Part shown: piece by piece, positions 2,914-31,618 of the stretch
Numbering within the stretch: the stretch's first letter is position 1
Layout: every line of letters starts with the position of its first letter
From: Portulaca oleracea
Taxonomy: Eukaryota > Streptophyta > Magnoliopsida > Caryophyllales > Portulacaceae
NCBI GenBank assembly: GCA_029582165.1
Contig: CM055877.1
Coordinates: 27,835,355-27,899,354, forward strand
Length of the DNA: 64,000 bases
Direction of reading: 5' to 3'
Translations under genes and position numbers: made by a program
The notes under the pieces: generated by a model
What the model was told of the DNA's origin: nothing
What the model saw: only the letters and a program-made list of their open reading frames with translations
The model's database searches: none

Positions 2914-4558
2914 TGTGGGACCCGGGAAAATCCCCGTGGTATCCCTCGCGGTAAACAGCGAGTCGAAAGGGGTGTCTTTTCTTTGAGAAGATTTGCTCGA
3001 ATTTCCGTTTAAAATAAATTAAAGTTTAAAATTTAAATAAACTCTTTTTTTCGGATTTTATTAAAGTTTGAGAATTTTATTTATTCAGGAAGTGAACAGA
3101 AAATAAAAAAAAGGAAAAAAGAAACGAAAAAAAACAAACAGAAAACCCCGGGACTGGGCTCGGGGCGGTTCATCGAGCAATACCGCAGTATTGCGCCGAG
3201 ACGGAAGAAACAGAGAACTCGGATCGGGCTCGGGTCGGTTCATCGTAGCAATACCGCGGTATTGCCGCCCCGGCAGACGAAGATAAAGAGAACCGGATGG
3301 GCTCGGCGGTTTATCGTAGCAATACTGCAGTATTACGCTTGCCCAGACGAGTAAGAAAAATAAAATCTTTTTTTTTTAAAAGAAAATAAAAAAAACTGCA
3401 AACAGGAGGATTCGAACCCGAGACCGAGACTGCTGTCTACTGCGATACCTGCAGGTATCGTGGTCGATAATCCGGGAGAGAGTCCCGATCTGGAAGTCAG
3501 GTCCGGGCCGTGGGTCGGGCCAGAATACCGCCAGGTATTCTGTCCGTCCCGGCCTCGGAGCCTACTTCCGAACTTAGGGATCCGGACCTAAAAAAACTTT
3601 ATTTTCGCAATCCGCTTTTTTTTTGAAATCCGAAAAGAAAATGAAACCCGAAAAATAAATAAAAGAAAGAAAAGAAAAACGAGTCGCCAATTAATTTTTG
3701 AACGAGAATTAATAAACTCAAAAAAAGTGACTCCACAAACCACGAACCACGAGATTCGGATCCGGGGGTAAGGTTACGAATTCGGGAATAAAATTCCCGA
3801 ATCCGCCCGTTCAACAAACGGACTTTACTAAACCGGTTAAAATAGAAAGAAGAGAAGGGAAAAGAAGAGAGTAGAACGGAGTATTAATTATCGTGATTAA
3901 TGTTATTTAGTTACATACAAATGCGAGAAATAAATACGATAAATAAAAGAATTAAATACAAGCGTACCTTTATTCACGAACAATCCATATTATTTAGGTC
4001 GAGTTTAGGGTTAACTCAAGTTACAAGATAATATGAATCAAGAATAGATAGAGAAGGAGAAAATAACGATGCCAATTAAGTGTATGCAAAAAATGAGAGA
4101 AGAGGAGGGGAGAAGGAGAAAGTGAAATTACCAAGTGTCAATACACCAGGGTGATTTCGGTGTAGGATTGAAGTGAGGGGTGAGAGGGGTTTTTATAGGA
4201 GAAATTGGGGTTTGGAATTTAGGTCAAAAATGAGGGGAAAAAAAATGACCTAATACCGCCAAGTATTGGGCTTTTCTGGGAGCCCGGCTGCTGCGGCACG
4301 CAACCCTAGGCAGGCGGAGGCGCCTCGGGTCAGGCAGGATCCGCCCCAGATACCTGGCGGTATGGGGGTCGGATCCGCCTGTTCCGGGCCTGCTTCTGCG
4401 CCTTGGGCCGCGTGCGGGGATGATTTTGGACTGATTTTTTTTTGGGTATTTCTTTTATTATTATTTTTGCATTTCATTTTCTTTGGCATTTTTTCCTAAA
4501 CTAAATAAAATAATTACAATAATTACAATAATTACAAGACACTTTTTGGGTGTCTACA
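2914..4558 (-). repeat. 3' LTR of element A
   Basis: Paired with 12373-14018. Most of the 1.6 kb is nearly identical between the two, but the GC-rich parts (about 3140-3355 and 4260-4430) differ by many small indels. Seven palindromes lie in it: 3179-3192, 3250-3263, 3321-3334, 3443-3460, 3523-3540, 4252-4267 and 4350-4363. The copy at 3443-3460, CGATACCTGCAGGTATCG, is a perfect 18-bp palindrome. A minus-strand TATA box (TATAAAAA, 4190-4197) marks the LTR promoter. Confidence 0.93.
3408..3418 (-). promoter_or_regulatory. Pol III B-box-like sequence in LTR
   Basis: On the minus strand GGTTCGAATCC is an exact match to the RNA polymerase III internal B-box consensus, followed about 15 bases later by a run of eight or more T. 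The same is found in the other LTR at 12899-12909. No convincing A box or tRNA cloverleaf was seen, so this may be a chance match or a tRNA-derived relic. Confidence 0.35.
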
Positions 4559-4575
4559 GTTAGCCCCCACTTTGA
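4559..4575 (-). promoter_or_regulatory. Polypurine tract of element A
   Basis: Directly upstream (minus strand) of the 3' LTR terminus is AAAGTGGGGGCTAAC, a purine-rich tract in the right place to prime plus-strand DNA synthesis. Similar GGGGGCT tracts recur on the minus strand at about 8285-8297, 8459-8468 and 8664-8672. Confidence 0.75.
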
Positions 4576-4615
4576 TCGAGTCTAAGTGAGATGATGATCA
4601 AAGTATAGCCTGGAG

Positions 4616-5175
4616 GTATTCGATCCTCCTTGATGTAGTTCGGCCTTTCCCGATGTCGTTGAAAATGTAGCTCAGTCTTTCCCGATGTCGTTGAAAATGT
4701 AGCTCAGTCTTTCCCGATGTCGTTCAGTCTTTCCTGATGTCGTTTAGTCTTTCCCGATGTCGTTTGAAATGTAGCTTAGTCTTTCCCGATGTCGTTGAGA
4801 ATGTAGCTCAGTCTTTCCCGATGTCGTTGAAAATATAGCTCAGTCTTTCCCGATGTCGTTCAGTCTTTCCCGATGTCGTTGAAATATAGCTCAGTCTTTC
4901 CCGATGTCGTTGAAAATGTAGCTCAGTCTTTCCCGATGTCGTTGAAAATGTAGCTCAGTCTTTCCCGATGTCATTGAGAATGTAGCTCTGTCTTTCCCGA
5001 TGTCGTTGAAAATGTAGCTCAGTCTTTCCCGATGTCGTTCAGTCTTTCCCGATGTCGTTCAGTCTTTCCCGATGTCGTTGAAATGTAGCTCAGTCTTTCC
5101 CGATGTCGTTGAAAATGTAGCTCGGTCTTTCCTGATGTCGTTGAAAACGTAGCTCAGTCTTTCCCGATGTCTCTA
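4616..5175. repeat. Tandem array, 20/31-bp units (CAGTCTTTCCCGATGTCGTT)
   Basis: Roughly twenty copies of CTTTCCCGATGTCGTT occur head to tail, mostly in a unit of about 31 bp with a linker close to GAAAATGTAGCTCAG; several shortened 20-bp units lack the linker. Variation between units is slight. The array sits just inside the 3' LTR, next to the PPT, and ends as the sequence turns AT-rich after 5175. Tandem arrays near the 3' end are known in Tat/Ogre elements and may seed satellite DNA. Confidence 0.9.
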
Positions 5176-5401
5176 TAAGAATTGAATTAAAATTATTTTC
5201 TGAGTCATATAGAAATTAAATTTCTATATTCTCTTGAAAATAATATATTTTTTCATATTTTCCTTCTTATTATTGGAGTATTTCAACAAAAGAAGTTTTG
5301 AATTCTCCTCCTAATAACTTTCCAGTCACATCGTATTTAGACTGGTCAAAGGGTCATTCAATTGGATTTAAGGATGAGGTAGGTGGGAAGTTGAGGATAT
5401 G

Positions 5402-5409
5402 CCTATAAA
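5402..5409 (+). promoter_or_regulatory. Antisense TATA box inside element A
   Basis: CTATAAAA on the plus strand, opposite to the element's own direction, followed by a pyrimidine-rich CT leader (about 5445-5510). It lies about 790 bp upstream of an exon-like ORF on the same strand and suits an antisense promoter. Inference from spacing and motif only. Confidence 0.5.
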
Positions 5410-5529
5410 AGAATGGGTCTTCACTCCACTCAAACATTATCCAATTTGTTCTTTCTCTCTCTAAGCTCCCTCTTCCTCTCTCTAAGCTCCCTCTCTCTCT
5501 CTCTAAGTGGATTGAGCACCACCCCGGGC

Positions 5530-6060
5530 ACCACCATACCGCCTAGTACTTTGGGTTCTCGGGTCCGGATTTTCGAGTTCAGATCCGAAACCTGCAGCAC
5601 GCCTGCCCGCCATACCGCCAGGTATCCAAGCCCGGGCTCCCGTTCCTGCCTCGGTTTTCGTGCAACAAATCGCGCTTGGAAGCTTCATGGAGACCCATAC
5701 CGCTGTGTATGGGTATCTTTCCTTGATTTTCGTGTCGGTCGTTCGTCGTCGAGCCTTGCCGGAGCTCGGACACATACCGCCAGGTATTGCGAGGCGCACG
5801 CCCCGGGTCTCAGATCTGGGATTTTCCGGGAAAAGTGCCACCTTGGTACTCCTGAATACCGCCAGGTATTCCCTGGATGATCCCGGGTTTCAGCTCCGAA
5901 ATTCTCTGGAAAAAAGCTCGGATTTGCTTTGTCGGAAGTAAGAGCCCATACCGCCAGGTATCTGTGTTCTCGGGCTTGGGCTCAAAAAACAAAAATTCGG
6001 AACTTGAATTCGGGAAATTTTGCCGAATCCCGACCCATGCTTGGCGGTATGCTCACACTC
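5530..6060. repeat. Dispersed ATACC-GCCA-GGTAT palindromes
   Basis: Six copies at 5612-5625, 5694-5713, 5774-5787, 5854-5871, 5948-5961 and 6036-6051, plus a degenerate copy near 5534. Typical form is ATACCGCCAGGTAT with flanking bases often extending the arms (GAATACC..GGTATTC; CCCATAC..GTATGGG). The intervening sequence is GC-rich and unlike from copy to copy. ORFs seen here in several frames are not considered coding. Confidence 0.85.
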
Positions 6061-6188
6061 GGGCAGACCCGAGGCGGCCCAATTCCTGTTGCGCAACTTA
6101 GGAGTCGGTCTTGATTTTGAGTCCCGGTCTAGGTGCAAGGAATTTTGTTTGGTCCCGGGATTTCGACCTTACTTCGTTTGTTTTGCAG

Positions 6189-6366
6189 CTTGCTTTTGAC
6201 AATGACGCAACCCTTGAAGCCTCGTGGTCATGTAGCACCTCATGCTGCGAATTGGGTCCACCATATGTTTTTCGCTAAGGAGTGGTTTCCCGATGGTGAA
6301 TTTAACCCGGCGAACCTCACGCAATATCCAAATGAACATGTGTGGCTTCGGCGATCGGAAATCCCG
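6189..6366 (+). CDS. Antisense exon-like ORF in element A, function unknown
   Basis: The interval is bounded by a good plant acceptor (TTTGTTTTGCAG) and donor (CCG|GTAAGC). An ATG at 6202 opens 55 codons, starting MTQPLKPRGHVAPHAANWVH and containing EWFPDGEFNPANLTQYP. It runs opposite to gag, between the coding region and the 3' LTR, where many Tat-lineage elements keep an extra antisense ORF (Steinbauerova and colleagues described such ORFs). I do not recognise the domain. The next exon was not found: a candidate acceptor at 7751-7753 would lead to an immediate stop in phase. It may be the first coding exon of a decayed antisense gene. Confidence 0.5.
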
Positions 6367-6559
6367 GTAAGCCTTTCATGTTTGTTGCATTTTTTTGCGC
6401 GTTTCTTATAATCCTTGGGCTTGTTAGTTTGCATGCTTAGGCCCAATTGCGTTGAAGCATCCTTTAGCCCAAACGTTTATGTAAATATTATGTGGACTTG
6501 ATGTTAGTAATTTTAGAGTTTAACGCCGGATTTTCCGGAGGTTTTTCTCATAAAAATCT

Positions 6560-7375
6560 GATGTCATGCCTCCAAGCGTGCACTCTGTCTAGTTTTCCAT
6601 ACTTTTCTGTACAGTTTTTTTTTTTCAAATCCTTGTATAGTCAGGCTGTCATGCCTCCAGGCATGTAGCTCTGTCCCGTCGATGTCGATCGATCAATCAT
6701 TTCGTTATTCGGAACTCTGGGCATGCTACCATGCCTGCAGGTATGGTGCTCTGTCCGGAGTTTTTCTGCACAGTCCGGACAGGTTTAAGTCTGGGCAGGC
6801 TGGCATGCCTCCAGGTATGGTGCTCTGTCCGGAGTTTTTCTTCACAGTCCGGTCAGATTTAAGTCTGGGCAGGCTGGCATGCCTCCATGTATGGTGCTAT
6901 GTCCGGAGTTTTTCTGCACAGTCTGGACAGATTTAAGTCTGGGCAGGCTGGCATGCCTCCAGGTATGCTACTATGTCTGCTGAATTCTGTCCAGTTTTCT
7001 TTGTTTTTGCACAGTCTTGCCGGATTCGGGCCTAGTCAGGCTGTCATGCCTCCAGGCATGCAACTCTTTCCAACTGTCTTTGTTTTTCTGCACTGCTTCG
7101 TCAGATTTGGGGTCTAGTCAGGTTGTCATGCCTCCAGGCATGCAACTCTGTCCAGCCCAGGATCGGTCAGCCGGATTTCACTTGTTGCACGGAACCCTAG
7201 GTAGGATGCCATGCATGTAGGCATGACGCTATGCCCGATTTTTATTTTTTTTTCGCATTGCCCAACCTTGAGTCCCCTCTGTCGAGCATCTTGCGTTTTG
7301 ACTTCGGATCGGGTCCATTTTGTTTTTGGTAATGCTGTATGTGGAACCTCGGTCCGGACCATACTTGGTGGTATG
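6560..7375. repeat. Minisatellite with CATGCC-TCCA-GGCATG palindromes
   Basis: About ten copies of a palindromic core (near 6566, 6650, 6730, 6804, 6881, 6951, 7046, 7127, 7210 and 7360) recur every 70-95 bp. They are embedded in related phrases such as GCTCTGTCCGGAGTTTTTCTG and CTGGGCAGGCTG. Arms vary together between ATGCC/GGCAT and ATACC/GGTAT forms. The block lies in what would be the intron after the antisense exon. Confidence 0.8.
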
Positions 7376-7454
7376 ATGTCTGTTTGCAAGACCCAGACCC
7401 GGCTTGTTCTTGGCAATATGGGTCGGGTTTGTCTGAATGCTCAAGTCTTCTTAG

Positions 7455-7735
7455 TTTAATTCAGAAATGAGTTATTTCCAAATTAATTCTCGTGAACATT
7501 GAGAACTGAATTTTTAGAGTTTAGCTCAGAAAATGAATTATTTTCCAAATTATTTCTCATAAAAAGTTGTGATCCGTTTTAGAGTTTAACTCGTAAAATG
7601 AGCTAATTCTCATAAAAATTTGTGATCGGAATTTTAGAGTTTAACTCGAAAAATAAGCTAATTCTCATAAAAATTTGTGAACCGAATTTTTTAGAGTTTA
7701 ACTCGAAAAATGAGTTAATTCTCGTAAAACTCGAA
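7455..7735. repeat. Tandem repeat, about 60-bp units
   Basis: Four to five imperfect units based on TTTAGAGTTTAACTCGAAAA and CTCATAAAAATTTGTGA. A single related phrase occurs earlier at about 6510-6555, suggesting local duplication within element A. Confidence 0.75.
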
Positions 7736-10316
7736 TTATCTCTTCATTGGCAGCGTCCTTTGAGCTTCTAGCAATATGTCCGAAGGCGATTAAGACTCCA
7801 AGTGAGCTTGCTTGATTTCTAATCACCATAGCTGCATTTCTTTTGAGGTTCGGGCGGGAGATAGAAGAATGCATATGCGGTTTTATGCATGCTATGCTAC
7901 ATGAATTATGTGAGAATAAAAAAAAAAGTACAAGATTATTTTATGTACAATACACAACTCTATTATGCATTTTATAATATAAGATTCTTTATGCATGATT
8001 TTATGCAGTCCTAATTCTAATGCATGATGTGACTCTTTTTATTTTTGGTACTTTTTTTATTTATGCAGTGCATGTGACTTTTTTTTTTTAGTGGACTCGA
8101 GAAGAAAAAAAGAAAAAAAAATAAAAACTAAAAAAACTAACATGACTCAAAATGAAAAATGAAAAATGAATTAATGTGACTCAATATGCAAACTAATGTG
8201 ACTTAAAATGAAAAATGCACATGACCTAAAAATAAAAACTAAAAAAAAATGCACATTGATTTGCTGCATGTATGCGATATGAACAGCCCCCACTTTCCCG
8301 AGGAAAGAAAAAAAAAGAAAAGTAAATAAAAAAAACTCTAAATGTCAAGAGTGATTTCGAGGTGAGTTTCAGGACAAGACAAAAATAGTGAAATGATGAG
8401 TTCTTCTTCTTGAATTGCATCGCAAGTTGCCATGATGCTGATATTGAGTGATGAGCGAGCCCCCAGTTGGAACGCTGCAAAATACGATATTAATGGAAGA
8501 CTCGGTCTGCTTAAGCTGCATGATGGGATAGTTAGGATGCTCGACCTTGATGTCATGGTTAGGAACCCCAAGCACTAAGAAGAATCAAGCGACAAGTCAT
8601 CTTGATTTCTCTTGCCTTTTCTCTATTCTTCTTGATTCCTTTAGGTAGGAACATGTAAGCACCAAGCCCCCAGTATCAGTGAACAGGCGTCTTTAGATGA
8701 GTCAGAATGATTGACCTACGTTGATGTTGTCTTCAAGTAAACCTTATTTTGATGCAGTTGGCTTCTTGTTCTGCTAAAGGAGTTATCCATCACTCAGGTA
8801 TTCTGAAAGCGAGGATTGACTGACGAATCTCATGCATACACTAATGACCAAATCAGAAGAGCTCACAGGGTAGGGACAATGGAGGATGGATTATAGAAAA
8901 GGTAGGAATGGTGGTATAGAAAGCATGTTTGTGAGTGGTTAGGCCCTAATGGTGGGTCAGACGAGGCTATGGATGGTTAGGCGAGAGTAGTGATCAGATG
9001 TAATGGACAAGGTGATGAGTGGATGGGTAGTTCGATGGAAAAAGATTCGAACTGACGGAGGAAGGTGAGATGGTATTTGGATGGAGAACCATGTTTCATG
9101 GGTTTATCTCATAAGGGAAGACATGGTCAAATGGCTAGATTTGGGTATGAAGGGTGATCCAAGTCTGATGGGAAAGGTGGGTATGTTTTGGTGAAAGAAA
9201 TCTGATAGCTTGTCAGTGTCATTAGAGACCAAGGTTTCCTCTTCTTTTGCCTAGCTCGCCTGGTGAGGTTTTCGAGCTAGCCACTCTTCATTCTATTTCT
9301 CAAAGACCAAATGATTTGATGATGGATTTTCTAGCGAATTGTAGTGGCCGGGCCTCCAAGAGGTTCTCCTACGTATCCATTGTGGAATCAGGCCAGTCGT
9401 AGCTCAACAGGTGCAGCTTTGATTGATGCCTGAAGAAGGACTTTGAGATGGGTCGAAGGTTTAATGGGAAGGATAGGTGTGAAGGTTTGACGAGAAGGTT
9501 TTGGAATGTGTGCAAGTGACCAATGTAAATAGACAATTGCCTCTTATGCCTCTTACTATTGTTTTCTTTTTTTTCTTTTTTTTTTTTGAACTTGACAACC
9601 TCAATCTATATTTCTCTTATCCATGATATTTGTCACTCGCAACACATTAGTCGGCTTAAAATGGATTTAGGGATGAGATGGTCATAAGATGAATGACCGA
9701 GTTCATGGTTGTGGTTAAGAATATGGTGTGGGAAGGTAATAATGTAGGTAAAACAGCTAGATGAAATGAAGGTGGTGATGATGTCGGTGGTAAGGGGTGG
9801 AAACCTTCTATCATAGGCATGTCTTTTTAAGCTGCATGATTTATTTTAGAGTGAGATTTACTTTTAGAGATTGTTGGTCGCTTTGAACTCTCCCCTTTTG
9901 CCTAACCTGTTGGATGGGTGTTCAGGTTAGCTTCCCTCCTCTTAACTTTTACTCATTCACCTCTCCTTTTGCCCAACTTGTTAGATGAGTGTTCAAGTTG
10001 GCCTCACTCTTTCATTTGTCTCTCCTTTTGCCTAACCTCGTTTTGGCGGTGAAGTTAGCCTCTCTTCTCTCTATTAACCATGGACTCAGGGTAGGGCAAA
10101 AAAGAATAGAGAAAATGTGATAGAGATGTGAGATGGAGTGGAAAAAAATGAGAAGATGGATGTGTCAGACTTGGATGGTCATATGGGTGAGTGAGCTCTT
10201 CAATTCAAATCAGGAATGCAAGCACATGATTCTTTCCTTAGCAGTTTAGAAGCAAATGAAGGGTCGGGGAAGACAAGAGTCACAATCATGAAAGGTTTCA
10301 TCTTTATTGAATGCAA
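7736..10316. other. Non-coding internal region of element A
   Basis: This is where pol would be expected, yet no reverse transcriptase, RNase H or integrase motif is visible on either strand. It contains A/T-rich simple stretches (about 7918-8330), PPT-like tracts on the minus strand near 8285, 8459 and 8664, and a set of hairpins at 9249-10060. A short open frame after 7754 was considered as a second antisense exon but does not continue in phase. Confidence 0.6.
9249..10060. repeat. Four hairpins with co-varying stems
   Basis: Each hairpin follows CTTTTGCC and ends before a C-rich tail. Arms: CTAGCTCG 9251-9258 with CGAGCTAG 9273-9280; CTAACCTG 9902-9909 with CAGGTTAG 9923-9930; CCAACTTG 9973-9980 with CAAGTTGG 9994-10001; and a weaker CTAAC 10032-10036 with GTTAG 10054-10058. 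The first three have 13-14-nt loops. Stem bases differ between copies but remain complementary. Confidence 0.8.
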
Positions 10317-11342
10317 CTAAGATGAATACATAAAAAAAAAAATTGCTTGGGATATGTCCCAACTAACTCGGAAAATGAAGACGATTGCCATGAAAAGACG
10401 CAACATGAGGGGATCGCCTAATTGATCTTTGCAGCTTAGGGTTTTGTAAAGACTCTGTTTGACTTCGTAGTAGGCCACGTTCTCTACTCTGCGATTGGCA
10501 GCGACAACACCCCGGATTGGAGCATCTCTTCTATCTTGTCCTTGATAATGTTGCATTTCTCGGTGTCATGACCTCGCATTCTATGATATTTGCAGAACTT
10601 GTCAGCATCCCAAGTTCTGCTTTTGACTTCAGGTTCAGCTCGAATAGGGGGAAGCTCGATCCTTCCTTCCTTGAGGAGACAGTCGAGAGCCTCCACATAG
10701 GTAGTGGAGATCGGAGTGAAAGACACGGGTTGTCGCGGTTCTAGCAAAGGAATTAAGAGCCCTTTGATGGATGTCATACAACCCCGTTGATGATGATCCT
10801 CCTCCTATATTTTCTTTGATGCAATGTTCGATATTGGTCGTCCTTCTATCGTTTTGTAGAATCCAAAGGATCATATCTATTTTTCGGTCCAGACCCTCCA
10901 TGCGTGATTGCATTTGAATTATTGTGGTAAAGAGTTTGTCCATAAAAGAACTTTCTCGTTCTCCATATCTTTTTTCTTGATCTCCTCTCGTAAGTGAGGT
11001 CGGGGTTTTATCCTCCTTCTCAGTTGAAGGGGACTTCTCCCTTGGTAAGTTGAACCTATGTGGTTGATCGTCTCTAAGAATAGGAGTGAGTCCTGTGTCC
11101 ATATTGTGATTTGCAGACATAAGGATCTCTCTCTCTATTTCATGCATGCTTGATATTTTGCTATGATGGTTGTTGCTTTCCTCTTTATCAAAAAAATTCA
11201 GCCTATCATTCATCCTTGATAGCGTATCAATGATTTCATCTATTCTCCTATCATTGCGTTGCATTTGCTGTGAAGCTCCAATCAAATGTTGGGAGATGAA
11301 GAGATTGAGTTCATCGTTGCTATGTATTCCGTTGAAGGCCAT
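10317..11342 (-). pseudogene. Gag remnant of element A, capsid deleted
   Basis: Minus-strand translation starts at 11342 with MAFNGIHSNDELNLFISQHL, followed by a charged, coiled-coil-like region and an SFMDKLFTTIIQMQ segment. Around 10777 the frame shifts to one reading TPISTTYVEALDCLLKEG and then a zinc-knuckle-like CKYHRMRGHDTEKC, matching the C-terminal part of Tat-lineage Gag and the equivalent CSYHRCMGHDTKRC of element C. The capsid core that should lie between the two parts is missing, and the frames do not join. A functional Gag is unlikely. The start lies about 1 kb after the PBS, consistent with the long leaders of this lineage. Confidence 0.75.
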
Positions 11343-12352
11343 TGGAGACAGTGATGCAAAGAAGGCAATTTGTTTACTCTGAATTCAAAGTCGGTCACCA
11401 AATCCTTATTCTGCCTGTATGGAAACAACAAACTTCAAAATCAACCCTGACATTGACCTACCCAACGACCTATATCAGAGAACTTAATGCAGACCATGTC
11501 TATATGCTAATTTTTTCCTTTTGACTTGACTCACCCAACATTGGGCTTGCATGATGACCTCTAGCCTAAGATGAGACTATGTACGGGGAAGGTCCATCGG
11601 GCCATCATAAGATCGAGTCGACATTAAATTTTAAATGAACTCAGATTCGAATAATGACCGGATACACCTTATGGGCCCGAATACAACCAAGGGTTGGACA
11701 AAGTCAAGCTAAGATCTCGGGTTTAATCAAACTTCTTTGATTTGGGCCCAAGAGAGACCTCTAGGTCTTCTTTAACTTTTGCATGACTATTGCCCAAACT
11801 AGAGGGGTATTTGGGGGGAAAGACCTTATGAGACCGACTCTTAAAAAAAGAAAAACATATAGCACATAATTTACATATATCACAACAAGGATGCACATAG
11901 CATACAAAATGGGTAATGCACTTAACCGAGGTTCTATATTCACGGGTTTAAGGTCGGATTCCTAAAACTATCATACTCATGTCTCTCACTCGTCACAAAT
12001 TCTATGGAGTTCATAGTAGTGTGACCCGTGTGTTTCTTGCAAAATTTTAAGGGAAAATGTAAATTCATAATCCCGAGAATTTTGGAGTGCTTCATGAGTG
12101 GGAAAGCAATTTACGAACTTCTCGAAATGTAAGATTCATTCCTTGAATTCGGAAATATACTTTACCCAAAAAGGAATTTGGGTTAACCTAGACGGTACCT
12201 TTGGGTTCATCCCGATTTATAAAAAACCGAGATGGAGGTCCGTATGCATGATGCCTAACTAAATAATAAAAATTACAAAAATTAATTTCTCCTTTTCTAC
12301 TCAAAAATTAAAAAAAAAATCGGCTTTTCAAGTTTTACCCTCTTAAAGTAAG
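11343..12352 (-). other. Leader between PBS and gag of element A
   Basis: About 1 kb of untranslated sequence in the element's direction. No ORF or domain is recognisable. Long leaders are usual in Tat/Ogre elements, which may carry an extra ORF here; none is seen. Confidence 0.55.
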
Positions 12353-12370
12353 TCCCCAGTGGAGTCGCCA
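12353..12370 (-). promoter_or_regulatory. Primer binding site of element A
   Basis: Two bases after the 5' LTR terminus the minus strand reads TGGCGACTCCACTGGGGA. The TGG start (complement of the tRNA CCA end) and position support a PBS; I believe this type is associated with tRNA-Arg priming in Ogre/Tat elements, but the tRNA was not checked. Confidence 0.75.
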
Positions 12371-12372
12371 TT

Positions 12373-14018
12373 TGTGGGACCCGGGAAAATCCCCGTGGTA
12401 TCCCTCGCATGATGGCAATGAGTCGAAAGGGGTGTCTTTTCTTTGAGAAGATTTGCTCGAATTTCCGTTTAAAATAAATTAAAGTTTAAAATTTAAATAA
12501 ACTCTTTTTTTCGGATTTTATTAAAGTTTGAGAATTTTATTTATTCAGGAAGTGAACAGAAAATAAAAAAAAAGGAAAAAAGAAACGAAAAAAAAAACAA
12601 ACAGAGGCTCGGGGCGGTTTACTGTAGCAATACCTGCAGGTATTGCGCCTGCCCCGGCCCGAGACAGAAGAAACAGAGAACCCCGGGACTGGGCTCGGGT
12701 CGGTTTACTGTAGCAATACCTGCAGGTATTGCGCCTGCCCCGGCCCGAGACAGAAGAAAAAGAGAACCCCGGGACTGGGCTCGGGGCGGTTTACTGTAGC
12801 AATACCTGCAGGTATTGCGCCTGCCCCAGCCCGAGACAGAAGAAAAATAAAATCTTTTTTTTTAAAAGAAAAAGAAAATAAAAAAACTGCAAACAGGAGG
12901 ATTCGAACCCGAGACCGAGACTGCTGTCTACTGCGATACCTGCAGGTATCGTGGTCGATAATCCGGGAGAGAGTCCCGATCTGGAAGTCAGGTCCGGGCC
13001 GTGGGTCGGGCCAGAATACCGCCAGGTATTCTGTCCGTCCCGGCCTCGGAGCCTACTTCCGAACTTAGGGATCCGGACCCTAAAAAAAAACTTTATTTTC
13101 GCAATCCGCTTTTTTTTTGAAATCCGAAAAGAAAATGAAACCCGAAAAATAAATAAAAGAAAGAAAAGAAAAACGAGTCGCCAATTAATTTTTGAACGAG
13201 AATTAATAAACTTAAAAAAAAGTGACTCCACAAACCACGAACCACGAGATTCGGATCCGGGGGTAAGGTTACGTATTCGGGAATAAAATTCCCGAATCCG
13301 CCCGTTCAACAAACGGACTTTACTAAACCGGTTAAAATAGAAAGAAGAGAAGGGAAAAGAAGAGAGTAGAACGGAGTATTAATTATCGTGATTAATGTTA
13401 TTTAGTTACATACGAATGCGAGAAATAAATACGATAAATAAAAGAATTAAATACAAGCGTACCTTTATTCACGAACAATCCATATTATTTAGGTCGAGTT
13501 TAGGGTTAACTCAAGTTACAAGATAATATGAATCAAGAATAGATAGAGAAGGAGAAAATAACGATGCCAATTAAGTGTGCAAAAAATGAGAGAAGAGGAG
13601 GGGAGAAGGAGAAAGTGAAATTACCAAGTGTCAATACGCCAGGGTGATTTCGGTGTAGGATTGAAGTGAGGGGTGAGAGGGGTTTTTATAGGAGAAATTG
13701 GGGTTTGGAATTTAGGTCAAAAATGAGGGGAAAAAAAATGACCTAATACCGCCAAGTATTGGGCTTTTAGGAGCAGCTGTGCTGCTGACGCAACCCTAAG
13801 CGGCGGGCGCCTGGGGTCGGCGAGATCCGCCCGGATACTGGCGGTATGGGTCGGATCCGCCTTCGGCGCCTTGCTTGCGCGTCTTGGATGATTTTGGACT
13901 GATTTTTTTTTTGGGTATTTCTTTTATTATTATTTTTGCATTTCAGTTTCTTTGGCATTTTTTCCTAAACTAAATAAAATAATTACAATAATTACAAGAC
14001 ACTTTTTGGGTGTCTACA
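12373..14018 (-). repeat. 5' LTR of element A
   Basis: Starts (minus) TGTAGACACC at 14018 and ends CCCACA at 12373. Seven palindromes: 12629-12644, 12715-12730, 12801-12816 (all AATACCTGCAGGTATT), 12934-12951, 13014-13031, 13745-13760 and 13835-13847. The first three sit in an 86-bp triplicated unit rich in CCCGGGACTGGGCTCGG. A B-box-like sequence lies at 12899-12909. A long ORF that spans these units in several frames is judged non-coding. Confidence 0.93.
13683..13690 (-). promoter_or_regulatory. TATA box of element A 5' LTR
   Basis: Minus-strand TATAAAAA within CTCCTATAAAAACCCC, conserved at 4190-4197 in the other LTR. It lies about 330 bp into the LTR, which would place the U3/R border shortly after it. 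Confidence 0.65.
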
Positions 14019-14023
14019 GATGG
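14019..14023. repeat. Target-site duplication, right of element A
   Basis: GATGG, identical to 2909-2913; its complement supplies the last bases of the LINE codons for L-P-I. Confidence 0.9.
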
Positions 14024-14028
14024 GTAAG

Positions 14029-15382
14029 TCAGTCAAAGTGCATTCCAGTTTTGTTGCCATGTCTTCTTTCCATTGTGTATCCCTGCCAAAAAACAATGAG
14101 ATTCGTTTTCTCATAATTCACAGCTAATCCGGATATCGCTTGGAATGTTTCCAGCATAGCCTTGATGTTAAAGAGTTGTTCCTCCTCCGCTTGTGCAAAA
14201 ATTATGGTATCATCAGCAAACTGCAGGTGTGTGATCCGGTACTTGCTTGCACCTACTTCCCATCCTTTGATATCTCCAATTTCTACCTGTCGCTGTATCA
14301 TCTTGTTCATGACCTCCCCCATCAGCACAAATAGGAATGGAGAAAGTGAGTCTCCTTGTCTTAAACCTCTCCCCATGCTAAAATGTCTTGTATGTGCTCC
14401 ATTGATGATAACTGAAATACTGACACTTCTAATGCACCTCTTGATCCATAATCTCCATTTATCCCCAAACCCCATGTGCTTTAGTACAGTGTCTAGTGCT
14501 TCCCAATCTACTGTATCATATGCTTCTGGAAATCCATTTTCAATAAAGCTCCACTTTTCTTCCTGTTCTTCAGCCAACTAACTGCTTCATTTGCTACTAA
14601 TGCTCCATCTAAATTTGTCTGCCTGGAATGAAACCCGTTTGCTCCTCTCCCACCAGCTTATGTAGTACCTTCTTCAACCTACTACTCAACACCTTCGAGA
14701 TGACCTTGTATATACAGCCTACCATAGAAATAGGTCTGAAGTCCTTTATGTCAACTGCGTCCTTCTTTTTCGGGATCAACATTACCCAGGTGATATTAAT
14801 CATTGTTGGAAAGTGATCATGATCAAAGAAGTTTGTGATCAGACTGCAGAAATCCTGTCCCACTATATGCCATAGCTTCTTTATGCTCCTCAGGTTAAAC
14901 CCACCATACCTTGGCGACTTCGCGGTATCACAGCTGTTGACAGCTCTCCATATTTCATCTTCAGTGACAGGAATCTCCATCAGCTCCCTATCCTCTTCAC
15001 TTAGCCTTTCAAGCCCCAAGTTCTCGAAGTCTATCTGGACGGTTAGCTTATGCCTCCTGTACAACTCTTTGTAATAGCTCCTAATTGCTCCTTTAACACC
15101 TTCTGCTCCTTGGTAAACCTGGCCATCCAGTATTATTTTTTCAATGACTTTTCTTGATCTTCTCATGGTTTCCAGCGAGTGAAAATACTTGGTATTCATA
15201 TCTCCTTCCGCTAGGTATTTACACCTAGACTTCTGCTTCCACAGTCGCTCATTCTTCAACTGCCATCTATGTAACTGGGTCTCTAGAGCCTGTCTTCTTA
15301 GGATATCACACTGGTTCAGACCATTTGTCATATCCTTTTCATCTAGCTTTTCAATCTCCTTTTCTAATTCAGATATCTTCAA
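14029..15382 (-). pseudogene. LINE reverse transcriptase, N-terminal and palm regions
   Basis: Two long minus-strand frames. 15382-14609 carries the pre-RT region (WKQKSRCKYLAEGDMNTKYF) and the RT motifs LIPKKKDAVDIKDFRPISMV and EEQTGFIPGRQI. 14577-14029 carries DTVDWEALDTVLKHMGF, GLRQGDSLSPFLF and HLQFADDTIIFA, in which FADD is the catalytic box of plant L1 RTs. A frame break near 14580-14608 separates them. The ORF is cut at its 3' end by element A. It would copy LINE RNA at nicked target DNA. Confidence 0.9.
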
Positions 15383-15553
15383 GTGAGTGTGACCGAAAAC
15401 CTCCTTATTCCATCTTTTCAGAGGTTCTTTGATGGCCTTGAGTTTTTTTTTATGAACTGGAGCGTTATCCGTTTTCTCCCGTTCTTCCTGGAACGTTTTC
15501 TCAAATCTTGGATCCTCTAGCCAAATATCATTTACTCTAAAAGATGTCGGCCC

Positions 15554-16235: not shown

Positions 16236-16238
16236 ATT

Positions 16239-16964: not shown

Positions 16965-17055
16965 TACTTGGAATCTCCATTCCTCCTCTTACCATCCCGG
17001 ACTTTGACAAACAAGGCTCCCGCCTTCCTTTACAAACACTCTGAACGAGCAGTCC

Positions 17056-17493: not shown

Positions 17494-17541
17494 CCTACCG
17501 TGATGAACTGAGCCTTGTATCCTTGCTAATCCTTCTTGCTC

Positions 17542-17916: not shown

Positions 17917-17930
17917 AACTTAAAGATATA

Positions 17931-19208
17931 ATTGTAATCTCCTTGAATAAGACTTGTACTTATAAAGGGAATTTTATTCATGAAATGACTCAATCAACCA
18001 AAGCATAGAATTATCATAAAAGTTTTTATCATAAAGGGTACGCCACATGAATACTTCGAAATAATTGTGAAATTATCCTGATAAATCGACCTGAATTACT
18101 TTTAAAAAAATCCATGAAAACTTGCATATATTTTGAACATAAATCATGATACTTTATGTATAAGCATGGATAACATAAAATAAATTTAGAACTTAACATA
18201 AATGATTAACTCATGATATTATTCATAAAAGGTCAGGCAGTATACGTACCTGGAATTATAGAAATCACCACAAAACGAGCAGGGACTTGAACAGCGGAGA
18301 GGAAACGATCTCTTGGAGTGACTTAGCAAGGAGGAGAAATTAAGAATTAGAACCCTACCTAGGTGAGATAATGGATGGGTAACTTTAATAAAATATAAGC
18401 GACTTGTTAATGAATTTAATTTCTTAAGTCGTCATGAAAGAGTCCTAACTATCTCTATAGACATCGCATCAACGCCTAAGAGGAATTTTCGGAAAGCTTG
18501 AAACACGCTTTACAACTGTATAGTTAGCCCCAAGGACCAAAGACATGATTAAGAAGGTCAAAACTCTTATTTCCCTAATCTTCCCAGAAAATAAAAACGT
18601 CAACTAAGCTTTCCCGAAAGGTTATAACTCGAGTTATACTAATCGGCTTTGGGCTGGTAAGCTGTCTATGGAAAGCTCATGATTCATACTCCAACTTTCA
18701 TTTTCACCACTACTTGATTTAATCTTGGGGAGAGGTCGATTCTCAGCCTAAAACAGATGCAGCCACGACAACATGCTTTCTGGAAAAACTCAGATTTTTA
18801 TCCTTCAATTAGAAGCTCATAACTCTCTCTCCCGACATCCTATGAATGCATACCATATCATTCTAGAAAGCTCAGAATGTCCTCTAAAATGTTTATGTTC
18901 AGTCTTAAATCATAGCACCCTCTAACGAATCGAAAAACACCCATCTTTGAACCGACGTCAAAATTTCTCACATTTGCGCGACTTTACGATTTTGGCCATA
19001 AATCCTAATATACACGTCGAAACGAGGAACCGTAAAAGCGGGTGTTAGCTAACACTTTAATATACCTATACATGCGATAAAATTATCCAGAATCACAACC
19101 TCCATTTCCTGGAAAAACCAATTATCAACCAGATTGCAAGTCTCTTAATACATCATTAACATGCATGCTTAAACTCTTGTGATTTAGCATATATCTCTCC
19201 TAAAACAT
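17931..19208. other. AT-rich repeat remnant, no gene
   Basis: No ORF above noise and no domain. The style resembles 1-1098, and both probably belong to one old LTR retrotransposon split by the LINE. Confidence 0.4.
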
Positions 19209-21597
19209 AATCCAACACTCATAATTACAATATTCAAATGTGAAAGGCCCAGAAAATTACCATTTAGATCCATTTTAATTGCATGCAACACCATTACATC
19301 AGTTGCTTCCACAATTCATCACCAAACTCAACATGCACCACCACAAAACTTTCAATCTTCTAAATCTATAGTTAATCTATAAACATGCACTTTGCATCTA
19401 ACCATTTTCCTTACGTTCACAGAGAATTACTCCTTCCAATTCACATGCATGCTTATTATTTGCAATGAATTTACTTAATAAACACTAAGATAACAAGAAC
19501 TTCAGCATACTTACCCAAATTCTTCTCTTTGGATTATTCCACACTAATCTTTACTTGAAGACCTTAAAACTCTTGCTTTGATTCTGGAATGACACAATAA
19601 TAACAAGAGAAAGAACTTTAGAATGTCATTTGATTCATCCTTAAAAGGAAGAGGAAGAAGAATGGAGTGATATACCACTTGAAATGGAAGAAAAACAAGA
19701 AAGATGAAATGATGATGATGTGGTGGTGCGATGGTGTAGACACCGGATTTTGTAATGGGACAAGTGTACAAATCAAGCATAACAAGAAAAGAGGCTAGCA
19801 TGAAGGAAAATCCAATGGGCCTTCCTCAATCAAGAGCTATCGGGCCAACCCATCACAAAAAACCTTCATTTTCCACCCTTTCGACATACATATGCCCACC
19901 ATTTCGAATCCCATTTTTTCCACAAGTCTTGTTGGCCCTATTTCTTTAGAAAAGAGTAAATTACACATCATAAGCTTTCCAACGCCTCTTGAATTGCTTC
20001 AATCGGAGTCCAGATGAAAGAGTTATGGTCGTTCGAAGTTGCACTTAGCCTGTTTTAAAACCCATGCGGGTTTTATTAATTCCCAGGCCTAGAAATCTGG
20101 CCCAGTAAGCAAATCCGGCCCAGTAGAGCAAACAAAACCCCCGGGGGTTTTATGCCTAGGAATGAAGCGCGTCGTTTTATCCGGCCATGTCAGCAATCCG
20201 TGGGAGATGTTTTAAAACCCGCAGGGGTTTTAATTCCTGAAGCTGGCGCCAAAATCCTTTCATGCAAACCCCCCGACTTTAGCCCATGTGGGTTGACTTG
20301 CATTGACCTACCTAAAACCCGCATGGGGTTTACGATTGCATGGGATAGAGGGGCATGATCATGGGGATGTGTCCCCTCCATTTTCCCTCCTAAAACCTCA
20401 CCTCTTCACCTATAAATACCCCCTCACTTTTCTACTCATTTCATCAACTACCACCAACTATCTCCATTACTCTACCCAAACTCTCTCACAAACTAATCCC
20501 TCCATAAACACTCATATCCTTACTCTTCTAAGCCTCTCCTAATCACTCTCATCATCACCACATTATCATATCACCCCCATAACCATCCTCAATCCTCATA
20601 TACATCCTTCCATCCAAGCTCCAATGTGAGGCTAAATCAAGAGGATTGATCTACATCTCCATCTCATCCATTCCTAGTTGGGTTTGCCTTTTATTATTGT
20701 CTTAATCTTGTAATTTATACTTTATCTCCTCTACTTGTACATATTTTGTAAACGAAAACCGCATTTCATATTGCATGATGAGAATATAATTTCGTGAAAT
20801 AAATTAAAATTTTCCTCGCTCTTTTTCATTTAAATGTCGATTTTAGTAGAGTCTGTTTTCTAACACGCGAATTCGAGAGTTCTTATAATTCTCGGATTCG
20901 TAACCTTACCCCCGAACTTGGAATCGGGTTTCGTAGACCGGAGTTATTTGTCGATTTCCTTAAATTGGCTGGCGACTCTTAATTCCTTTACAACCGATTT
21001 AATTATTTAAAGCACACGGATTTTACACCAAAATAATTTTAAAAAATGGTTTAATATTTTCCTCTCACTAATCCAAGGCTAAAACCGAGAGAAAATGGGC
21101 CAGAAATTGATAAAACCTCCGCAGGTTTTATCAGTTTTAGCCCATCTTCTCTGGCCCACGGAAATGCATGGTCCAGTCCATGGACTGTTAAACCCCCCCC
21201 CCCCCCCCGGTTTTAACAGTCAATGGCGGCCCGTTTGGCTTCTGTTGGGCCTGGGTCTAGCGTTTGGGTCAATATTGAATTATTTTTAAAGTATTTCGGT
21301 GTAAGTTCGAGTGCTTAAATAATAAAAAACGGAATTATAAATAAATAAAGTTTCACCACCCCGAAAACGAATTTCGAAAATAAAAATATCCTTATATAAG
21401 GATTAAGCAGCCTTAGTCGGCTCCCGATCACCTAAGTAGCGCATCCGAAAGCCGACATCCCATAAACGGGGGGGGGGGATTTTCGGGTCCTACAGATGGT
21501 GGCCAAAAAAATGGCTAGAAACGGCCGATGGCGACTGCTGATGGCCGGCAGCAAGGCTGCTGGTGGCGGCTGGGCAGTGAGGAGGTGGATGGTCATG
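19209..21597 (-). repeat. LTR-like repeat copy 1, interrupted by solo LTR
   Basis: 19209-19734 plus 21495-21597 match 31619-32232 closely. The second copy is uninterrupted and continues to 32808, where it reads TGTAATAACCCG on the minus strand, an LTR-like start. The two are therefore probably LTRs (or pieces) of one older gypsy-type family. Predicted ORFs within (rich in leucine and histidine) are not considered genes. Confidence 0.65.
19735..21494 (+). mobile_element. Solo LTR, Tat-like, with AAAACCC..GGGTTTT palindromes
   Basis: Begins TGTAGACACC and ends GGGTCCTACA, flanked by GATGG at 19730-19734 and 21495-21499. Termini match those of element A, but the body is different. A TATA box (TATAAATA, 20411-20418) is followed by a C- and T-rich leader. 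Palindromes lie at 20057-20074, 20134-20151 (AAAACCCCCGGGGGTTTT, perfect), 20214-20231, about 20314-20331, 21109-21132 and 21184-21220. No internal region remains, so unequal recombination between LTRs is the likely origin. The uninterrupted paralog at about 32140 shows the empty site. Confidence 0.9.
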
Positions 21598-26394: not shown

Positions 26395-26395
26395 A

Positions 26396-26413: not shown

Positions 26414-26557
26414 TGGCGTTATTTGGTAGATTAGGTTATTGGTTTGTGTGTATATAGTTTATTGCTCTTGATTTTTGCTAGAAAAAAATGTAGTCAAAAA
26501 AATTGAATACTGAGAAAAAAAAAGAGAAAAAAAGAGAAAAGAAAAAAAATAGAGATT

Positions 26558-28345: not shown

Positions 28346-30223
28346 GGAAGAATGAGTATCTTGATAAGAAGCCTTGCAGGTAATATCCTTCCTCACCTTT
28401 CTTGTACAGTTAGTGAGTATTCTTTCTTTTCATCTTTTATTTTCTTTTTATGTGTGTTTCTTTTTCTTTCCTTTTTGGAGTGCTTGCTTACCTACTTCTG
28501 TTTCCATTGAGGACATAGAAACCTCTTTGTGTGGGAGTGGGCGGTAATATGCATTCCGGTTTTTGAGTCTAAGAAAAGAAAAAAAAAAGTGAGATTCATC
28601 TTGTAAATATTTTAGTTTTTCTTTAGTTAGTTAGTCCCTAGTGTCTAGTGTAGTTTGTTTTTCCTTTTTGATCTTGCATGTAAACATTCACATATAGTAT
28701 GAGTTTCTTGTTTATTTCTAACCTATGGTGTGATGTTCTTTGGATCGTAGATTGGGTGTGCTTTAATTAAAGACCTTGAGGTAAAATCCTTCTACCTTCT
28801 CTTTTATGTGAATATATCGATGATCCATGTTGCATGCTTGATTTTTCTTTGGATGGCGAACCCCTTGAGTGTGAATGTTGGGATTATTGTGTTGTTGGAG
28901 TCGTGTGGGCTCGAGTCGCCACCATTTTGTTTGCTACGTGTTTGTTTGTGTGTTTTTAGGTTTTCTACCTTACTTGTGACACCTTTCTTCTCACAATGGA
29001 GACATTGTGAAGTTTTGTGTGGGAGTGGCGGGTGATACTTCCATTGTTCATGGGTAGACAACCTAGTATTTTTTATTTTGTTTTTCATAGTTTTTGTCTA
29101 AAATCTGAAAAATTTTGTGTGAAAAAGGAGAAAAAAGGGAGTGAAAAACCTTTTTCGGTTTTCGTTCTTTTTCTTTTGTTTTTGCCTTGTGTTGAGAATA
29201 AGTGTAACTAATGCCTAGAAGACTTTCTTAATCTCCTTGAACGCAACCAGTATGAGCATGAGCAATATCGGTCCTTAGTTCGAGTATTGTCATGACTTAC
29301 TTATGTAGATTCCCTTCATTAAATGCTTAATAAGGTCCTTGATTCTTTCACGTTCTCTTCGAAATTGTGAGACTTTAGTAGATCATATCCGAGCTTGTTG
29401 AAAAAGTGAATCTTAATTAAATCGGAAATTGTAATGCTAAGTTAGTCTACCTACATGGGACCAGTATAAGCGGTGCGGCGCTCTTACCCCTTAAGCACTT
29501 CGTTTTCGTAACGATGAGGAGTATGGAGTAGCCCGTGTTGGGAGGATAAACCCCGTTATGGGCCGTTCAATTCCCGAAAAAACTAACACTAATCTCGTTG
29601 AGCTAATTTGAAAAGGCCAACGTTAAAATAAATCGTACTGAATGTGAAGTCTTCCTTTGCGTTTCCTGCGGCCCTCACCAAGCCAACTGCGACACAAGCG
29701 AGGGGGGGACGACACTTAAATAATCTTTTGCTTTGAAACAAGCTTGGATTGTGGTTTGCTCTAGATAAATCAGATTCGATTAGAATAACACTTGCACTGG
29801 CGCACATAGGATCTTGTTTTGTAGGAGATGTTGGGAATCGAATACATTAAATATTGGAAATATCTTGAGTTAGGAGATTTGAGGTGCTCATAATGGTTCC
29901 TTTTAGTTGATCAATATTGTTTTCTTAGTAGCGATTGCGTGATTCCTTGAGCAGGCAGCTTTTCTTTACTTTCTTTCAAACTTGTTTTGTTTTTCACTTT
30001 CCCTCTCTCCTTTTCTTTGGCTTTTGTGGGTATAGCTTCTATAAACCCTCACAAGACCTTCCTCGTCCACTTGGGCTGCCAAGGGGTTTAAAGGGCTTTA
30101 TGCATGTGCTAAATGCATCCGTGATTCCTGCGAAAGTGAGTTAGGGTTTTTAGTTCTTTTTCTCTGTCTTTATCTTTTTTGTTTTAGTTTGCTCGGGGTG
30201 AGCAAACCCTTGTGTGGGAGTGT
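28346..30223 (+). other. Element B non-coding region with three PPT-like tracts
   Basis: No ORF with a known domain. TTGTGTGGGAGTG occurs at 28527-28539, 29015-29027 and 30210-30222; the last adjoins the 3' LTR and must be the working PPT. The first two are preceded by ATTGAGGACAT- and ATGGAGACATT-like strings. The remainder is T-rich. Confidence 0.7.
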
Positions 30224-31618
30224 TGTTCGGTCTCATTCTGAGTCGAATTTTATATCTTTTATAGGGTGTTTTTAGTTATTTTAGCCCCTTGTATATATAT
30301 TAGATATGATGATTTTAGGTTTTGTAGGAAAATAAGGAGTTAGAAGGAATTTAGGCTTAAATGAGGGTTTTTAAGGGAATCCCGAGCGATTTCCCGAGTC
30401 AACCCGAGCCGGGAACCGAGGCGAGACCAACCCGGGAACTTCATCTCCTTAATTGGCGATAAACAGGGGAATGGGACAGACCTATGTCGCGCCTCAGTCA
30501 GCAAGCGTCGCACCCGTGACTCCGTTCTGCCACGCCTGCACAACCGAGCATAAGACGCCGCGCTCGTTACCAAACAGGTCACGCCCGCGACCTGGTGCTG
30601 AGAGACGAAAGGTCCAGCGAACAGACGTGGGTCGCGCCCCTGATACATTGTATCACGCCTATGACATAACTAGGTCGCGCCCGCGACCATTGGGGTAGTG
30701 CCCGCGACGTCTGGGAGAGGCTGACGGATACAACACGGGGCAGAACCTGGTCGCGCCCGCGACCGAAGTGGTCACGCCCGCGACTGTTGATGTTGCGGAA
30801 TCAATACGCGCGTTCTGCCGAGCTTAATTTTGGCTTTTGCGTTTTCGTTTTCTCTCCTTCTATAAATACTCGTTGTAATTCAGCATTCTAATTATCTTAG
30901 TCTTTATCTTAGTAGTTTAGGAGTAGGATTAGAGTATATTTGGATTTAATTATTTTCCTTTATTCTCTCTTTAATCTTTCTTCAAGTTTTTAATTGTTCT
31001 TCAAGCTTTCTTTGATTTCTTGCATTTGTATTCAAACTTTCTTCAAGCTTTCTCAATTCAAGCAAGTTTCCATTGAAGCTTACAAGCTTTCTCTCTTTTC
31101 CTCTCTCTCTTTCTCTCCCTCTTTCTCCTTTCAAGTGTCATTGTTAACTTGTTTTCCAAGCTTTCGAGTGATAGCCACAACCAATCCACTTTTAGTGAGA
31201 TGGAGGGTCAAGGGTTACCAATTCTACTTTCTAGTGAGAATTAGGGGATCCTTGGTAATCCAATCAACAATTTCTTGTTTGTTCGGGGGAAGTTACAAGT
31301 GTAGATTGAAGATTAGAAGATTGTGTTCATCAAAGGTATAATTTCTTGTCCCTAATTTCATTGTTCATTCTAGTCCTTCATTCATGCTTTTAATTGATTT
31401 CTTAATTTCATGCTTTATTTGATTAGATGCTTTTATTGCTTTCTTGATTATGCATTTATGCATGTCTAGATTAGCTTAATAGCTTTATTTACATAATTTA
31501 CCGCTTTCCGCACTGAGAAAAACCCTTAGACAAACCGATTCCCTCGTCAAGCCTAACACCCTTCCATGTGGACCGACAACCCCAACTTAACAAAAACCAC
31601 AAAAATTACAACCGAACA
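30224..31618 (+). repeat. 3' LTR of element B with GGTCGCGCCCGCGACC palindromes
   Basis: TGTTCGGT to ACCGAACA, 1395 bp. Four clear copies of GGTC[AG]CGCCCGCGAC[CT] lie at 30577-30592, 30673-30688, 30749-30764 and 30770-30785, with weaker versions near 30486, 30508, 30630 and 30693, all in a CpG-rich island of about 330 bp within AT-rich surroundings. After it come a TATA-like TATAAATA (near 30861) and a long pyrimidine-rich leader. The predicted ORFs here are not considered coding. Confidence 0.88.

Follow-up and report, generated by a model that had tools for sequence, protein, structure and literature searches.

Why do three retrotransposon families that lie in one 64,000-nucleotide stretch of the Portulaca oleracea genome (assembly GCA_029582165.1, contig CM055877.1, positions 27,835,355 to 27,899,354; here, the window) each carry an array of short palindromes? 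The families are represented by element A, by a solo long terminal repeat (LTR) of a family designated S, and by element B. In two of the three Tat-type families examined that contain a plant mobile domain (PMD) gene, A and S, one family-specific palindrome is common to the LTR and to a gene in antisense orientation. The arrays are probably clusters of sites for a dimeric regulator used by the family, which in A and S would switch the LTR and the antisense PMD gene together; this reading, including the predicted binding, is given a probability of roughly 0.6.

Palindrome arrays of element A and its antisense gene

Element A is oriented on the minus strand, from 14018 down to 2914, as indicated by its primer-binding site (PBS), a polypurine tract-like stretch, its TATA box, and the LTR start TGTAGACACC. 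Its LTRs and their arrays are as follows.

2914..4558, minus strand: 3' LTR, 91% identical to the other LTR
12373..14018, minus strand: 5' LTR, with a TATA box at LTR position 330 and palindromes on either side
12630..13029: right-LTR array, with ATACCTGCAGGTAT at 12630, 12716, 12802, and 12936 and ATACCGCCAGGTAT at 13016
3177..3542: left-LTR array, with exact copies at 3445 and 3525 and shortened ones at 3177, 3248, and about 3320

Every motif quoted in the first-pass annotation of the window is present at its position; what that annotation overlooked is the minus orientation of A and the fact that its internal copies are part of an antisense gene. Matches to ATACCNNNNGGTAT in the right LTR comprise five exact copies, one with one mismatch (at 13746), and one shortened copy; those in the left LTR comprise three exact copies, including one outside the array at 4350, one with one mismatch (at 4253, also outside), and three shortened copies. 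The first three copies of the right array lie within an 86-bp tandem repeat. Relative to the TATA box, two of the LTR sites are upstream and five downstream.

The three shortened palindromes of the left LTR lie at 3177-3340, and two of them are still fully symmetric (ATACCTGCAGGTAT has become ATACTGCAGTAT and similar). A shortened palindrome is also found at one site each in the fetched stretches L020 and L023.

The putative antisense unit is located on the plus strand, internal to the 3' LTR and close to it.

5402..5411, plus strand: TATA-like box, the putative promoter of the antisense gene
5536..6050: leader with ATACC-type palindromes, exact at 5612, 5774, 5856, and 5948 and imperfect at 5536, 5697, and 6037
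6202..6366, plus strand: exon 1 (MTQPLKPRG...RSEIP), followed by GTAAG, a presumed splice donor
6651..7224: array of ATGCCTCCAGGCAT, ATGCCTCCAGGTAT, and variants in presumed intron 1, at 6651, 6731, 6805, 6879, 6953, 7046, 7128, and 7211

The six additional copies originally placed at 5612-6051 belong to this leader, which contains four exact and three imperfect copies. The CATGCCTCCAGGCATG copies of element A sit in the presumed first intron of the antisense gene, where there are eight ATGCC-type copies, part of them in 74-bp tandem repeats.

Homologs of exon 1 are found in six fetched stretches, with 76 to 88% identity over 54 to 56 residues; the matches in four other stretches are shorter or weaker. 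In relatives of A, the antisense gene continues into exons that match the PMD family (Pfam ID PF10536), with E values of 8e-9 in L023 and 4e-9 in L015; the match in L027 (E value of 1e-7) is under the curated cut-off. The A-type exon 1 is also found upstream in L015, L023, and L027. No PMD exon was matched in the copy of element A itself. A PDB sequence search with the PMD returned a single match with an E value of 1, and the AlphaFold model of a PMD relative from Jatropha (P0006), based on a 39-row alignment, is of low confidence (pLDDT of 53, pTM of 0.35).

A candidate origin of the shared motif, duplication of the LTR in front of the antisense gene, is rejected: in a BLAST comparison of the window with itself (E value of 1e-10), no alignment longer than 60 bp joins the A LTRs with 5360-7300.

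Family S and element B

19735..21494, plus strand: solo LTR (TGTAGACACC...GGGTCCTACA) with the target-site duplication (TSD) GATGG
20057..20331: palindromes AAAACCCNNNNGGGTTTT of the solo LTR, exact at 20057, 20134, and 20214, with one mismatch at 20314
30221..31618, plus strand: 3' LTR of element B
30506..30785: palindromes GGTCGCGCCCGCGACC of element B, exact at 30673 and 30749, with one mismatch at 30577, two at 30770, and three to four at 30506, 30630, and 30694

The palindromes reported for the solo LTR, including the one at 20134, are confirmed. All the sites at 20057..20331 are upstream of a TATA box at 20410, and a two-mismatch copy at 21112 is downstream. The solo LTR shares its start sequence and a short conserved block with A, which suggests a Tat-type family that is related to A but has another palindrome. 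The view that the motifs are unrelated in sequence is too strong for this pair: by inspection, both read AA(T/A)ACC...GGT(A/T)TT, with the spacing changed. In element B, the whole set of palindromes is upstream of a TATA box at 30860. The four clear copies described at 30577-30785 are found where they were placed, but only two of them are exact.

In a relative of the solo-LTR family (L033), the LTR contains two exact S palindromes and a shortened one upstream of the TATA box and one more downstream. In the antisense direction, three S palindromes (one imperfect) precede a second TATA box, three are found in presumed intron 1 before the PMD exon, and two others lie farther down the antisense gene. 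This exon is called PMD from its 44% identity to the PMD exon of L023. A second S copy (L034), with 81 to 91% DNA identity to L033, has S palindromes at matching places; the PMD exon found in L033 is missing from it, and the later exons are retained.

The TSD GATGG is common to element A and the solo LTR (19730-19734 and 21495-21499 in the latter). A target preference of the lineage is possible.

Palindromes shared within families A and S

Shared 9-mers between LTRs and the 5' regions of antisense genes (for L034, the comparison covers just the antisense promoter and the intron region; the LTR of a third family, T, is represented by only 575 bp) peak within families A and S. All 16 A-by-A cells have 21 to 41 shared words, versus about 9 to 13 expected, and six S-by-S cells have 14 to 34, versus about 10 to 13; the top words in the listed own-family pairs are pieces of the palindromes. 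The T LTR shares 8 words with its own gene, versus 2.4 expected.

A second comparison uses coordinates alone on contig C1 and the PMD exons listed (the best 146 of 4278 and the best 150 of 4982 candidates). Of the 6 A-type exons, 4 have an exact A site in the 2.5 kb upstream, versus 0 of the 12 S-type exons (Fisher p 0.005), the latter set combining 11 matches from one PMD listing with 1 from the other. Two of the four A-type exons with a site are neighbors and one is the query locus. The A site nearest to the S-type exons is more than 200 kb away. S sites accompany both of the S-type exons that fall in the listed range, the nearest ones lying 222 and 275 bp upstream.

Enrichment over chance

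Palindromes with perfect arms of at least 6 nucleotides, a GC content of at least 30%, and a loop of at most 6 nucleotides were counted in the window against dinucleotide shuffles, in regions picked after the finding had been seen. The right LTR of A has 7, versus 1.8 in shuffled sequence (none of 300 shuffles reaches 7); 5500-6100 has 4, versus 0.9 (2/300); 6400-7260 has 4, versus 0.9 (1/300); the solo LTR (19735-21450) has 7, versus 1.7 (1/300); and the B LTR (30220-31617) has 5, versus 1.3 (2/300). The left LTR of A, with 5 versus 1.8 (15/300), is marginal. Among the contrast regions, there are 0 palindromes versus 0.8 in 4560-5500 of A, 4 versus 5.7 in 7260-12372 of A, 4 versus 3.5 in the internal part of B, and 33 versus 29.4 (3/20) in 32150-64000. 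The region 14020-19200 has no visible array and is enriched nonetheless (10 versus 5.0; 2/100), which blurs the contrast within the window. The excess over shuffled sequence that the first-pass annotation had expected is therefore found in five of the six array regions, but it is not confined to arrays.

The genome-wide test is much stronger. Compared with reversed-pattern controls, there are 2093 exact matches versus 4 for ATACCGCCAGGTAT, 13382 versus 26 for AAAACCCNNNNGGGTTTT, and 1962 versus 0 for GGTCGCGCCCGCGACC. These are not independent events, as the copies arise by transposition. Chance palindromes in GC-rich sequence would account for the marginal left LTR, taken alone, and for the enriched array-free region; they are contradicted by the genome-wide counts and by the remaining array regions, which makes this explanation practically negligible.

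Symmetry, spacing, and conservation of the sites

S half-sites occur 13382 times with a spacer of 4 nucleotides, 315 times with spacers of 0 to 3 nucleotides together, and 307 times with spacers of 5 to 10 together (26, 126, and 161 in the controls). Outside the core, which spans 14 bp in A and 18 bp in S, complementarity of the flanks is close to the shuffled level. At positions ±1 to ±3 of the A flanks, it is 0.45, 0.39, and 0.40, versus 0.36, 0.32, and 0.31 in shuffles; of 2000 shuffles, 140, 267, and 112, respectively, attain these values. Of the 24 flank tests, the one that deviates most is a cell of the loose S core, with a value attained by 52 of 2000 shuffles. This test kept 67 of 122, 19 of 22, and 18 of 29 unique sites once similar flanks had been removed. 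Selection for stem length, considered as a source of symmetric but variable outer flanks, is rejected, as the A flanks are only slightly above shuffles.

At positions 3 and 12 of the A core, there are genome-wide 4836 A.T sites (control, 1156), 1975 G.C sites (control, 75), and 2145 mixed sites (control, 434). With the controls subtracted, the 1711 mixed sites are half of the 3428 expected if the arms varied independently; hence, two-fold symmetry in the A core is favored, though not absolute. The proposal that the arms of A change together thus holds as a tendency, but individual copies have one-arm mutations, as expected after insertion.

In 22 aligned LTR copies, four palindromes have identities of 0.76 to 0.85 and surpass all 24 flanking windows tested (0.33 to 0.71). 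The alignment comprised 23 hand-picked copies, not all matches, and L024b was dropped for this test. It is biased toward copies with at least one exact site, because the stretches L009-L028 were taken from the surroundings of sites within the first 100 entries in the list of 2093 exact A sites.

Selection for two-fold symmetric sites, as first proposed, is supported. Among the functions listed with that proposal, a site for a dimeric DNA-binding protein fits best, and in particular better than a hairpin, since the spacer is fixed, complementarity stops at the core, and the sites are found around TATA boxes, at the antisense promoter, and in the presumed intron. RNA packaging or dimerization and hairpin-mediated recombination are disfavored, because the tolerance of loop length and of extra stem that they would lead one to expect is not seen. 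Some palindromes do reach arms of 9 to 10 bp, and small RNAs have been reported, in the available parts of two papers, to accumulate at the palindromes of Sirevirus LTRs (PMC10760457, PMC5311732), as would suit hairpins that act as a source of small RNAs, as cruciforms, or as packaging or dimerization structures. Such small RNAs may, however, be a by-product, and the S spacer is fixed at 4 nucleotides, the sequence is nearly fixed per family, complementarity is at the shuffled level from the core edge on, and sites lie on both sides of the TATA boxes. Function as hairpins is therefore improbable.

A purely mutational origin, in which tandem duplication and template-switch repair of quasi-palindromes build and maintain functionless arrays, appears less probable still. 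It would agree with the copies inside 74- and 86-bp tandem repeats and with the shortening of left-LTR palindromes on both arms. However, the flanks of many sites are unrelated to one another (122 unique A-type sites fall into 67 distinct flank contexts), the same word is found at the LTR and at the gene, and the palindromes outlast their immediate flanks (in the biased sample just described).

Proposed regulator and its alternatives

Each array would be a group of binding sites with two-fold symmetry, recognized by a sequence-specific dimeric regulator that the retrotransposon family has come to use. In A and S, copies of the family-specific site surround the putative LTR promoter and recur at the presumed promoter or leader and in the presumed first intron of the antisense PMD gene. 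Given the same site at the LTR and at the antisense gene, one factor could switch both transcription units together. By analogy with VANC, and judging from the position of the sites near TATA boxes, the regulator may activate or de-silence. The promoters and splice sites of this scheme are predicted, as is protein binding at the sites.

The probability that the PMD protein itself is this factor, closing a regulatory loop as VANC does in VANDAL transposons, is put at about one third. A wider version, which is doubtful, would make the Gypsy PMD protein a sequence-specific, family-private regulator of its own palindromes at the LTR and antisense gene, with the host silencing factors MAIN and MAIL1, which go with the DOWN motif, as domesticated descendants of selfish regulators of this kind and the diverging palindromes as the trace of coevolution between PMD and site.

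Several observations weigh against a regulator shared by the LTR and the PMD gene. Co-inheritance of the two in one element cannot separate an element-encoded factor from a host factor, and a founder effect partly shapes the counts and spacing of sites in transposed copies. Between 12 and 23% of all 14-bp LTR windows are conserved as well as the palindromes or better. The solo LTR shares 14 9-mers with the S gene of L034, versus 12.6, i.e., at expectation. Three cross-family pairs have an at least twofold excess: the A LTR of L015 with the S gene of L033 (20 versus 8.2), the S LTR of L033 with the A gene of L027 (33 versus 16), and the T LTR with the A gene of L027 (10 versus 3.4). Among the three cross-family pairs listed, pieces of the S palindrome occur only in that of S_L033 and T (two words, once each). 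Two of the six listed A-type PMD exons on C1 have no exact site within 2.5 kb upstream. In family T (L041), the PMD exon is 59% identical to that of A and exon 1 is alike, yet inspection by eye showed no palindrome common to LTR and gene; short TAGCTANGAGCTA palindromes are present in the LTR part, and a nonpalindromic word, GCAGACC, is repeated in the leader. No comparable array is seen at six loci of a distant PMD group (L035-L040, six of 119 matches). Finally, element B has an array, yet no PMD exon was matched in it and no further copies ahead of an accessory gene were seen.

The idea of an array at every PMD gene is accordingly rejected, since L035-L040 and family T lack a comparable or shared one. 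In the distant group, a pair of related 14-bp palindromes is found in L035, about 2 kb upstream of the PMD frame and separated by 110 bp, and three weak ones in L037; the four loci that were aligned align poorly with A and S.

The absence of a matched PMD exon from B, together with the PMD genes of T and the distant group that share no palindrome, favors an alternative in which the sites serve host transcription factors (e.g., stress or germline ones) exploited by different families, the PMD gene merely sharing the promoter logic. Sirevirus motifs, according to the available text of PMC2829016, mainly matched stress-related host sites in the PLACE database. However, the motif differs from family to family, which one common host factor does not demand, and in A and S it follows the family in the LTR and antisense gene alike. 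Host factors are thus a less likely explanation than a regulator tied to the family.

Other features and palindromes

2909-2913 and 14019-14023: TSD of element A, GATGG
12353..12370, minus strand: PBS of element A, TGGCGACTCCACTGGGGA, read from the sequence
10635..11384, minus (sense) strand: gag-like remnant of element A
31618-32146: uninterrupted copy of the repeat that flanks the solo LTR

The PBS of A is presumably of the Tat/Ogre type, and 10635..11384 is taken to be gag, although no Pfam family scores above its cut-off there. No pol was recognized by eye among the open reading frames (ORFs) of A of at least 60 amino acids; the Pfam scan of A covered one sense ORF and one leader frame. 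A long region between pol and the 3' LTR with an antisense ORF, typical of the Tat/Ogre/Retand layout, is present in A and the solo-LTR type, with pol itself not located. TRP28 (PF04195) is not among the Pfam matches (E value up to 0.1) of the 14 proteins scanned, which are part of the ORFs, and A is therefore not classed as Retand. Element B, which we take to be Athila-like from the PBS adjoining 26396, has no recognized pol, and its 612-amino-acid ORF matches no Pfam family above its cut-off.

A long interspersed nuclear element with a reverse transcriptase (PF00078) at 2480-3025 and 14029-17541 (minus strand) is seemingly split by element A. A long imperfect inverted repeat, with arms of about 480 bp that are 83% identical, is located at 45506-47599. 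Inside a PMD gene remnant at 39064-41115 (minus strand), there is a short element (approximately 40065-40720) with TTCGGGTACCCGAA-type palindromes; its ends, TAGGGGTGTTCA...TGAACACCCCTA, are presumably hAT-like.

Further palindrome families are found outside the window. Arrays of CAACACGGNYCGTGTTG palindromes are present at 302-433 of L012 and at 1852-1979 of the reverse complement of L034; those in L012 lie upstream of a TATA-like box near 632, and the palindromes upstream of a TATA in L012 are centered on CAACACGG. Two LTR-like segments, L009:1000-1110 (CGTCACGGTCGTGACG) and L028:106-201 (TGGCTCGGGCGAGCCA), have flanks that look homologous by eye and palindromes that differ, a natural motif-switching pair. 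GCGACCGATACGTATCGGTCGC-type palindromes form two subterminal clusters (1790-2043 and 7259-7481) in a transposon of L016, which is presumably CACTA-like from its CACTACAACA end; the clusters resemble TNPA sites. Five ATGCCACGTGGCAT sites, 66 to 345 bp apart, at C1:11205833-11206433 make up a further motif family, which contains CACGTG.

Comparison with known systems

A search of the PMC literature, outside which most subscription journals lie, found no paper joining the plant mobile domain, palindromes, and retrotransposons. The closest systems each share only part of the arrangement described here. In CACTA (En/Spm) transposons, diverse short subterminal repeats are bound by the element-encoded TNPA (PMC2613891, available part). 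Unlike the arrays of A, S, and B, those repeats are located at the ends of a DNA transposon and are needed for excision.

Retand/Tat elements have antisense ORFs between pol and the 3' LTR, whose usual domain is TRP28, with a proposed DNA-binding role (PMC11963269, in part). Element A resembles them in the position of its antisense gene and in the tandem repeats nearby. However, its relatives encode PMD in this gene, the sites are common to the gene and the LTR, and the available text of that paper ties no palindromic sites to TRP28.

PMD-A clades are encoded by Gypsy elements, as stated in the available part of PMC5418596. In Arabidopsis, the PMD proteins MAIN and MAIL1 are linked to a promoter motif, DOWN, in 25 of the 26 genes commonly lowered in PMD-pathway mutants (PMC7156037, available sections). 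These are host proteins. Should one private word be found at both the LTR and the antisense PMD gene of many families, it would provide a direct, testable target for the function of Gypsy-borne PMD genes in flowering plants and would link these genes to the host silencing proteins MAIN and MAIL1.

VANDAL transposons carry short family-specific motifs in introns and upstream of their own genes, which are spread by tandem repeats and read by the element-encoded VANC protein (PMC5735166, available part). Similarly, the A and S motifs differ between related families and sit in presumed introns and upstream regions of element genes. In contrast, VANDALs are DNA transposons, the VANC motifs quoted in that text are nonpalindromic, and their binding was shown experimentally.

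The hosts of the present arrays look like Ty3/gypsy elements, of the Tat type (A and S) and Athila-like (B), a superfamily assignment presumed from their PBS types. The Sireviruses, which are Ty1/Copia elements, provide the closest parallel. In the available text of PMC2829016, family-specific palindromes of 10 to 20 bp lie upstream of their LTR TATA box and again upstream of ENV, and elements with no ENV have no internal copies. The solo-LTR and B arrays are likewise upstream of the LTR TATA box, and A has two sites upstream and five downstream. Further copies just before the accessory gene are found in the A leader and in the antisense promoter of L033, but not in B. The CGG-CCG core in the table of that paper is, by inspection, absent from the A, S, and B motifs, the S motif having it reversed, as CCG..CGG. 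The accessory gene also differs: it is an antisense PMD gene, with sites in its presumed intron as well. Palindrome arrays as such are thus known from Copia Sireviruses, and what is new here is that elements of Ty3/gypsy type have them in a paired, Sirevirus-like arrangement that involves an antisense PMD gene. The repeated motif was called Sirevirus-specific in the same text, where the comparison was with classic Ty1/copia elements; paired promoter arrays would also arise in what appears to be another LTR superfamily, with a different accessory gene.

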